A stretch of 64,000 nucleotides of DNA, from assembly GCA_028753945.1 (NCBI GenBank), contig JAPNXP010000003.1, positions 496,001 to 560,000 on the forward strand, given 5' to 3'. The stretch comes from Hexactinellida sp. DTS-2022. Lineage: Eukaryota; Porifera; Hexactinellida. Both the position numbers and the translations under genes were made by a program. Below, piece by piece: positions 26,501 to 32,934 of the stretch. The notes under the pieces were generated by a model, which saw only the letters and a list, made by a program, of their open reading frames with translations, was not told where the DNA came from and made no database searches. How positions within the stretch are numbered: the stretch's first letter is position 1; each line of letters begins with the position of its first letter.

Positions 26501-29500
26501 CCTTGGACCCCTTAATTTCATATTTTACAGTATAAATATCGTTACCACTTGAATTTGATAAGGAATTTTATTATTCTTTTCAGAATATAAGTATTGACAG
26601 TCATATATTAGATGCGGGATATAGTGGATATAGTGATATAATGGGTATAGTGATAATTTTATCACAAATCAGATGTCCCCACCATTATCACTATATCCAA
26701 TATGTACTCTATAACGCAATGATTTCTATAGGTAGAGGACATATTGGTATGGTGTAGCGAGCGACCCTTCTGGGGGGTCTGGGGGGTCTGGGAGGCATGC
26801 CCCCCAGAAAAAAAATTGATTGCGATATACCCAGATATCGATTTGTAACCATTCATGGAACCAATAGAGTAAACGGTAACCCGCACCATTAATGGTGCCC
26901 TCCTTCAACTTTTTACGGGGGGCGCACGCCCCCCTGTTTGCGCCACTGGTCAAAATCTTATCCTGGCAGAAAATTTATGTCAAAGAATGGAATTATATTC
27001 AATATGATGAGGAAAATGAACATACCCTCAATGTTGGAGGACCATATATGGTCAACTGCTGCTGTTGCTCGCGAATCTAAATGGGAAACAGTAAATATAT
27101 CTTAGATATTAAATCACAATGATTTTTTTTGTTTGTTCGGAATTGATTGAGGAACTGGTAAGAGCTATTTGGCAGGGGGATGGGGAATAATTTTTCTAGG
27201 AACAAGTTCTAATATATAAGAAAATATTTAGATCTTCCCTCCCAAAGGTGACAAAACCTTTACAAAAACTTTAGCCAATTAAATCGAGCGTTGTCCCAGT
27301 ATGGATTAGCAGCCAGCATTCAATTAATATAAAAGTATTTTAGAGTCTCTATCTATTGTTAATTGTGCATAATATAATGCATAACTGAGTCTCTAATTTA
27401 ATTTGGTTAATTGTGTTCCGTCTGTCTACCCATACATTTCTAACATTCCATTGTGTCTATTTGATATCCAATTATTATCAATCAATACAATAACTGTTTC
27501 CTACTTGGGTCCAAGGAGTTGTACATTTCCTTAATGATCGTTAATTTACAAATATTTGGAGTTGGTATATTACACACGGACAAGCTTATCTATAAAAATT
27601 ATGTTTAAATTAGCATCAATTTACCGGCGCTTACTGGATTAGTATTTGTAATTAATTTACTTTGACCTTATATAAACCTAAAGCTGGGGTCTCCGGATAC
27701 GATATACTGCTTAGGGGGTCACAGCTCAATAAGGTTCGGGATTCCCTAATCTGCTACCTATATGCTGTTCAGTAGAATCTGCTAAAGGTCACTCTATACA
27801 ACGCTCATTTGTACATAGGCTAGCGGCCAGTAAAATAATTCCTATATGTTTCCCGTATTATAATCAACCTGTGTATGAGGCTTTTGAACGTTGTGTAACG
27901 CTTCCAAGGGGGAAGGATTATGAATTTGACAGACTACATTTTATTACAAAATGACAAAGAAACTTTGCGTAAGTAGAGGGGATCAAGGAATTATCTAGGA
28001 GACGCTCCTTTTGGAGTATGATTTTGGAAAATATTAATTAGGAGCGTGAAATTTAGAATCTTCTCCTATACCGTAACATTAAATTGTGATTTAGGCGAAT
28101 GAAAATTGGATCATACCAGGATTAGGAGCGTATTTACAATGACTGTATAATACACTGGAGGGGATGTATAATTTTCGTAATTATTCGTTACATTTCACAG
28201 TATTTAAATACAACCGGCATATCATTTGACAAGTTATTTTATTTGAGTATAAGCGAGGGCCGCAGCCCCGAGTGCAAGTTGTAAGAACGCGCGTAGCGCG
28301 GACGAGCAGCTTGTCTATATAAATACAACTCGATTGTTGTCTTTTTGTTAGGTTGTTTTTTTGATTGTTTTTTGGTTTTGGTTTGTTTGTAGGTTTGTTC
28401 GTTTGTTTGTTTGAAAGTTAGTTTGATTGAAAGTTAGTTTGTTTGAAAGTTAGTTTGATTGATTGTTTGTTTGTTTGAAAGTTAGTTTGATTGTTTGTTT
28501 GTTTGAAAGTTTGTTTGATTGTTGTTTGTTTGTTTGAAAGTTAGTTTGATTGTTTGTTTTTCTTTTCTTTTTTGTTTGTTTGTGGGGTTCTGATTATATT
28601 ACAGTGATAACTGTTAAGAGAATCTAAACCGCACTTAAAATTACGATAGAGACTTGCTTCCAAATGTTTAAATCGGTAACAAGCTGGCTGATTTGAATTT
28701 CGCATTTAGAAATTTCTAATATAAATATTTAATGTTGTTATGTATATTAAGGTGGAGAAATTGGTGAGAATTCAAACTTTTGAACTTATATAATGTTTGG
28801 TTAAGGAAATTTAAGGCCGCATAGCTTCCAGATGAAAAACAGTAGAAATCGTTTTTTTTGTCCATTTGATTACACTGACTAGGCGACAAAAAACACGATT
28901 CATAAATATATCCGAATAATTTATAATGGAAATTTACGATACTAAACCAATTTATAATTTCCATAATTTTGGTTGGAAACTGGATTGGATTAGTCGCAAC
29001 CAGTGTCCACTGGTATAGTGGTTGTAACGGATTCTAACTAGTTAAGACGCAATCCGATTGGAAACTTCTTCCGACTGCAACAGTTACACTGAATGATTAA
29101 CGAGAAAATTATCTGTATATTTTCAAGCATATTATTGTAAGAATCAAAAGTCAAAATCATATCCTGGCAAATACTTTATGTCAAAGAATAGAAATATAAT
29201 CGAACTGAAGAGCAAAATGAACATACCTCGGTAAAACTCGAGCATTCTTCCGCTATGGTTTCTACGGTCTAGATAAGAAACAGTAAAAGTACGGACCTGC
29301 ATCCATGCAGGGCCGTAGCCACTGGTCCGGTTGGTTCGGTTTCAACCTGACCACTTTTGGCCACTCGGTCAGGTTGGACAAGTTAACTTGGCCACTTGGT
29401 CCCGTTGGTACCGTATCCTGCACGGTCTAAGCTGACCACTTTTAATTGGTGACTACGGCCCTGGGCTAGGGTTCCAATTGTGAATAAAGGTAAACAAGTT

Positions 29501-32934: not shown

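Follow-up and report, generated by a model that had tools for sequence, protein, structure and literature searches.

Five consecutive introns in a stretch of glass-sponge DNA are alike up to their splice sites, while the exons between them look unrelated, which raises the question of how such an arrangement came about. The original prediction offered two answers: a mobile intron-making element (an introner) was inserted repeatedly into one coding stretch, or duplicated exons diverged fast while their introns were homogenised. We analysed the locus in a window of 64,000 nucleotides from Hexactinellida sp. DTS-2022 (contig C12, positions 496001-560000), together with its paralogous copies elsewhere in the genome. 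Coordinates are those of the window unless a contig or copy is named.

Structure of the micro-exon gene

The predicted span, 27026 to 32934, proved exact, exon A starting at 32934 and exon E ending at 27026, with the minus strand as the coding strand. The gene itself extends well past this span: it is a micro-exon gene on the minus strand, of which we found 13 exons between 32934 and 2502, the gene's first exon not being among them.

32881..32934, minus strand: exon A, 54 nt, TPHGQMTFEDSPPSNSNT; homologous exon and conserved flanks in the copies L018, L020, L021 and L022
31730..32880, minus strand: intron A-B, 1151 nt; 5' start GTATGTTGATTT
31643..31729, minus strand: exon B, 87 nt, LQHDIVHQLCTRFTRIGSPEPTFPGSILP; found by both splice scans
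30274..31642, minus strand: intron B-C, 1369 nt; 5' start GTATGTTGATTT
30220..30273, minus strand: exon C, 54 nt, TPGNIMFRDARSISTTYR; splice scan
29269..30219, minus strand: intron C-D, 951 nt; 5' start GTATGTTCATTT
29227..29268, minus strand: exon D, 42 nt, TVETIAEECSSFTE; splice scan
27077..29226, minus strand: intron D-E, 2150 nt; 5' start GTATGTTCATTT
27026..27076, minus strand: exon E, 51 nt, IREQQQQLTIYGPPTLR; found by both splice scans
24883..27025, minus strand: intron E-F, 2143 nt; donor block shared, acceptor different
24853..24882, minus strand: exon F, 30 nt, PQPISLSESD; splice scan
21497..21529, minus strand: exon G, 33 nt, ESGDEMETPLD; looser splice scan
21209..21496, minus strand: intron G-H, 288 nt; absent from the copy L030 (C1:11.31 Mb)
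21182..21208, minus strand: exon H, 27 nt, NEAKLAILD; splice scan
19814..19891, minus strand: exon I, 78 nt, EHIKAKLFVQGTEMKLKKTTLSSDIN; by homology, missed by the splice scans
18128..18205, minus strand: exon J, 78 nt, VRIGQMQMLQQSNYRAHRTQIDEIVK; looser splice scan
16797..16882, minus strand: exon K, 86 nt; by homology
3415..3492, minus strand: exon L, 78 nt, EDVRKREREAAAVFAEAAESTKRTID; by homology
2502..2579, minus strand: exon M, 78 nt, SETDEMAKKIRKLEATYHKDTNEVYQ; by homology

Exons A to E are all multiples of three, free of stops and joined in one open frame in phase 0. Whole codons make up 12 of the 13 exons found (27-87 nt), the exception being exon K, which in the window is 1 nt shorter than in L030 and leads to an early stop; the gene may, in the window, be truncated or in decay. 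Scanned for splice sites with strict settings, the minus strand between 14 and 42 kb returned only 12 candidates, and its seven symmetric, open, phase-0 rows correspond to six different exons (B, C, D, E, F and H). With looser settings, 17 of 67 rows were symmetric and open on the minus strand (14-64 kb) versus 6 of 86 when the plus strand of the whole window was scanned, and 11 of the 17 represent exons of this gene or their variants. The full form of exon A was missed by both scans; its weak acceptor (AAG) was placed by alignment with four copies. Intron J-K contains a 490-bp tetranucleotide microsatellite of GTAT and GTCT units (17308-17797).

The passages of PMC10526429 and PMC4350168 that describe schistosome micro-exon genes (MEGs) report exons of 3-81 nt, mostly whole codons, long introns and an N-terminal signal peptide. 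The window gene shares with them very short whole-codon exon chains, long introns, membership of a multigene family, a transposon-rich setting and fast evolution, and its exons fall in the same size range, B (87 nt) and K (86 nt) lying slightly above it. The likeness drawn here is one of gene structure and pace of evolution, and no signal peptide was seen in the 13 exons found, which lack the first exon; nor do these passages compare synonymous exon divergence with intron divergence. For a glass sponge the gene looks unusual, since the Aphrocallistes genome, in the part of its description that we draw on, has short introns and many single-exon genes.

The encoded protein had no homologue in a large protein collection. 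Its 191-residue concatenation matched no Pfam family and gave one weak match in a PDB sequence search (E 0.15); the C-terminal parts matched Pfam only below the curated cut-offs and yielded one weak PDB match (E 0.025). A resemblance of the C-terminal part to the meiotic protein SYCP3 was considered and left unsupported by a search with Pfam Cor1, whose strongest genomic hit is at C14:296316 (E 0.002), away from this gene and below the cut-off. Among the matches listed in a literature search that covered few subscription papers, no paper on hexactinellids dealt with this family.

Shared introns and duplicated exon-intron units

All five introns following exons A to E open, as predicted, with GTATGTT(G/C)ATTT, and the common acceptor type was confirmed for most of them, reading ctgtttcccatctag before exon C, ctgtttcttatctag before D and ctgtttcccatttag before E; the acceptor before exon B is cgttcccatatag and that before exon A cctatttccgtcaag. 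The fifth intron (E-F) has a different 3' end, tatactttctttag, before exon F. Within the introns, a repeat search found two blocks: one of 119 nt on the donor side, present four times, with identities of 64, 71 and 88% between the reference copy and the other three, and one of 46 nt, present five times. The introns are thus indeed alike up to their splice sites, but the homology is not limited to intron ends: repeat families occur in both halves, and in forced global alignments four pairings of the first four introns (A-B, B-C, C-D and D-E) were identical in 83, 75, 81 and 75% of columns. That the exons are unrelated holds for most of them and is slightly too strong for exon C, which weakly resembles exon A. 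In this one of 28 exon comparisons, 76 of 20000 shuffles scored as well with the window's exon A, 20 of 20000 with that of L021 and 604 of 20000 with the other A type; for exon C of L017 against exon A it was 1526 of 20000.

The 3' parts of the introns carry a TTTG-rich dispersed repeat, for which a spanning query gave at least 82 matches in the genome (40 of 280 candidates scored). Dispersed elements at 16106-16770 and 22838-23340 start, by eye, with CTCGATTGTTG and a TG-/TTTG-rich run and end near 'gaccgaagggctcg'; the family introns contain similar starts.

Outside the window, partial copies of the gene lie on contigs C1, C11 and C12, and most of them may be fragments:

C11:6.003-6.007 Mb (L017): exons B, C, D
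C11:6.648-6.661 Mb: exons A, B, F, G
C11:10.98 Mb: exons A, F
C11:2.70 Mb: exon A
C12:0.771 Mb: exons X, A
C12:0.926 Mb: exon B
C1:11.31 Mb (L030): exons G-K
C1:10.68 Mb: exon J
C1:10.82 Mb: exons L, M

The copies differ by unshared insertions, visible as gaps between matches, and the family exons by in-frame length changes. In L030, G and H form a single stretch of 57 nt, versus 33 and 27 nt in the window, without the 288-nt intron; by our own reading, a one-base shift affects the acceptor of G in this copy and would leave a G-H stretch of 56 nt out of frame, and for this reason the copy may be dead. Exon H was not found at L019, which has the G donor. At L033:9104-9458 (C14) lies an intronless copy of J, K and beyond with a 2-nt frame break; with its J-K junction read by eye, it looks like a processed copy. 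In L017, an insertion of about 560 bp with inverted ends (4170-4740) splits the intron after exon B. Near one family copy (L038, on C1) lies a receptor gene whose closest named relatives come from the glass sponge Oopsacas minuta (66% identity), proteins without a name reaching 79-89%, in line with a hexactinellid source.

The distribution of the donor-side block bears on the choice between insertion and duplication. It has at least 16 matches in the 112-Mb genome (18 contigs), and all 16 start or continue introns directly after exons of this one family; searching for it in the introns of other genes, as had been proposed, gave none among these matches. The 16 matches represent 15 introns, one being split by an insertion, which follow exon A five times, B four times, C and D twice each, E once and, once, the donor of exon X, an extra upstream exon of the family. 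Since each of these introns begins right at a family exon's donor, the block was copied with the gene, and the paralogous copies hold exon and intron together. Target-site duplications, likewise sought at the junctions, are absent from the five introns, where the longest in-register direct repeat is 2 nt; they are not obligatory, being shown by 49 of 130 judgeable introner families in the part of PMC9860276 that treats them. Introners as described there resemble the present case in having sequence-similar introns with similar splice sites, and the dissimilar exons would fit them too; unlike introners, the introns here are confined to one family, lack target-site duplications and have exons duplicated alongside, and we consider repeated insertion of a mobile intron-making element almost certainly wrong. 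We have shown that the window gene arose as units of exon and intron were duplicated in tandem, and the account of a micro-exon gene whose exons and introns were duplicated together, not created by introners, is in our view hardly in doubt.

Divergence of exons and introns

Introns are the customary neutral clock for duplicated genes. In this family the normal order is reversed, many of the coding pieces differing far more than the intervening introns, even at silent positions. Paralogous exons differ at 118 of 995 aligned sites in 17 pairs, the adjoining introns of the same pairs at 173 of 8652 (our own sum of 17 rows from a comparison of boundary-anchored matches), with intron divergence ranging from 1 to 6%. 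The totals exclude five of the 22 boundary-anchored rows: three between-group pairs for exon A and one each for B and J. We selected the 17 pairs ourselves, in most cases taking the most similar copies, and some members recur among them, which makes the P values below rough; the comparison covers one family in one genome, with short exons. Boundary-anchored matches replaced a forced-alignment measure of the introns (695/11103), which runs into unshared insertions and by which the exons still exceed the introns.

For the 16 pairs with codon counts, divergence was 25% at synonymous sites (49.5/196) versus 9% at nonsynonymous sites (66.5/713). Pure synonymous changes, which keep the amino acid, numbered 34 versus 3.71 expected from each pair's own intron rate (Poisson P 2e-21), so that the intron clock and the synonymous clock disagree about nine-fold. 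This outpacing of introns by synonymous sites was not foreseen by the original prediction. The 116 exon differences in these pairs fall on the three codon positions as 34/25/57, and the substitutions comprise 59 transitions and 57 transversions.

The effect varies by exon and pair. Between the window and L030, exons H, I and J each carry four pure synonymous changes, versus 0.14, 0.16 and 0.36 expected, and exon J between two C1 copies carries 11, on 11.5 synonymous sites, versus 0.30. One F pair (3 versus 0.15) and one B pair (3 versus 0.25) also show a clear excess, as H, I and J do; A between L020 and L022 has two such changes versus 0.14. No excess was seen in A between window and L021 or between L018 and L020 (none in either), in B between window and L017 (2 versus 0.71, P 0.16) or in D (1 versus 0.14, P 0.13), and pure synonymous changes were absent from C, G, L, M and from F between L019 and L021. 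In C and G, divergence is raised through amino-acid changes alone. Similarity at the level of the introns is seen in some exons, namely D (1/42), K (2/86), L (0/78) and M (1/78), L and M together having one difference in 156 nt versus 21/1999 in their introns, and is not seen in others (H 8/27, I 8/78, J 13/78, B 19/81, C 6/45).

The excess ends at the splice sites. In exon I between window and L030, the exon differs at 8 of 78 positions, its displayed flanks at one base and wider flanks at 11 of 969. Within the first 60 intron bases beside exons, divergence is 2.1, 5.0 and 4.3% versus 4.6% at bases 61-120, and is not raised. An evenness test of low power found no patchiness in the introns shared by window and L030 (116/4424, dispersion 1.07, P 0.35, 39 windows of 100 bases) or by window and L017 (43/2526, dispersion 1.28, P 0.16, 25 windows), the latter covering two filter-passing stretches, with the one over exon B not among them. 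The introns resemble even-aged young duplicates, while many exons look old. Of the prediction's second answer, the duplication of the units and the far greater change of many exons are borne out; homogenisation of the introns is one of two readings.

Possible causes of exon-confined divergence

The reading that we tentatively favour, over homogenised introns and with a probability of about 0.4 by our own judgement, is gene conversion confined to exons and using a spliced template. Exon-plus-intron units would have been duplicated first, their introns recording the recent date of each duplication; later, single exons would have been overwritten from diverged family members by a conversion that spared the introns. 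A spliced mRNA or cDNA would serve as the template and align with the gene one exon at a time while the introns loop out. Such a template would be the simplest explanation for changes that stop at splice sites and are nearly all-or-none for each exon, for a copy lacking one short intron and for the existence of an intronless copy. L030, which is without the G-H intron, has H among its most changed exons (8/27), and the even intron divergence fits one duplication date rather than a patchwork, weak as the test is. Intron loss mediated by reverse transcripts, like the formation of retrocopies, is a known process, and L030 and the C14 copy resemble its products; unlike in that process, most introns here are kept and it is the exon sequence that is changed.

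Several points count against exon overwriting. Recombination with cDNA usually removes introns, and tracts of 27-78 nt are short for conversion. No donor of the overwritten exons was found, exon J having only three DNA matches, to which a protein search adds the C14 copy. The window and L030 both differ from L032 in exon J (at 23/78 and 19/78 positions), and at least two overwriting events are therefore needed. At C and G, the excess of amino-acid-changing differences alone could be explained by selection. The fused G-H stretch of L030 is only putatively the derived state; the window has the intron and L019 the G donor. That a germline process in this glass sponge rewrites the exons of the micro-exon family, with diverged relatives supplying spliced RNA or cDNA, and leaves introns untouched, is an extension that we regard as rather unlikely. 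If exons were overwritten via spliced copies, genes in the animal germline could exchange coding sequence through RNA; if the rewriting from spliced templates holds, it would constitute an exon-specific generator of diversity in an animal.

Alternatively, the paralogues could be old and their introns repeatedly homogenised by gene conversion, with conversion of exons selected against or blocked by divergence. The part of PMC3213168 on gibbon L/M opsins reports precisely this signature, synonymous and nonsynonymous exon divergence both exceeding intron divergence, and ascribes it to intronic conversion. A patch common to two introns of the window gene is of the kind that such conversion would leave:

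32092..32271, minus strand: patch within intron A-B; identity with 30946-31125 is 96%, in introns 83% alike overall
30946..31125, minus strand: partner patch in intron B-C, the match of 32092..32271

Since 116 of 117 columns are identical here amid 83% overall, and the patches agree with each other by 95% versus 85-89% with the loci other than the C11:6.0 Mb copy, the alignments suggest sequence exchange between introns A-B and B-C within this gene. Set against this, the two pairs tested, both of which join different contigs, show an even intron divergence without patches; there is no rise in the first 60 intron bases beside exons, and unshared insertions distinguish the copies. The L/M opsins, moreover, are two neighbouring genes with a synonymous divergence of 6.1-6.4% (same part of PMC3213168), unlike the several loci on three contigs, the exons of 27-87 nt and the 11 changes on 11.5 synonymous sites seen here. 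We judge homogenised introns only slightly less likely than exon overwriting; if introns were indeed homogenised across contigs, this would be the opsin pattern in an extreme form and a warning for the dating of duplications. Primate alcohol dehydrogenase was considered as a further parallel and rejected: exon and intron trees conflict there, with conversion in both, according to the relevant part of PMC3409193, which is not the present pattern.

Once duplicated, the protein might have come under positive or relaxed selection, with the introns as a neutral yardstick, as in venom toxin and morpheus/NPIP families. In exons A to C the amino acid differs at 30 of the 119 codons aligned in six pairs, which is free change, and lengths vary in frame, and C and G lack pure synonymous changes; selection may be acting on exons A-C and G. 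It is insufficient on its own, because synonymous changes are so far above expectation, and it cannot have driven H, I and J, because their synonymous divergence lies above that of the adjoining introns (4, 4, 4 and 11 changes versus 0.14, 0.16, 0.36 and 0.30). Nor does nonsynonymous exceed synonymous divergence overall in the 16 pairs, as in toxin-like families, C and G singly being possible exceptions. This explanation is contradicted for H, I and J and could hold for A, C and G only, and we judge it improbable for the family. Searches on conserved introns with variable exons, on venom genes and on cDNA-mediated conversion returned little or nothing in a literature of which few subscription papers were covered.

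A hypermutation process aimed at this family's exons would agree with the sharp edges and with the presence of all substitution types, but a steady exon-wide mutator should also affect D, K, L and M, which are spared, and we hold it to be quite improbable. An artefact by which assembly or polishing altered exons only, for example via RNA reads, would likewise stop at splice sites, but is very improbable given the preference for third codon positions and the in-frame indels, and transcripts at 10-40% divergence should fail to map.

Beyond the gene, the window holds further open reading frames. Two long ones on the minus strand at 34667-39105 look by eye like the gag and pol regions of an LTR retrotransposon, and two at 43105-45663 belong to a P-element-like transposon (Pfam THAP, Tnp_P_element and TNP-like RNase H). 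One at 53552-54601 has a DDE_Tnp_1_7 domain and is presumably of piggyBac type, and one at 61836-63365 has a DUF4371 domain, which we take to be transposon-like.
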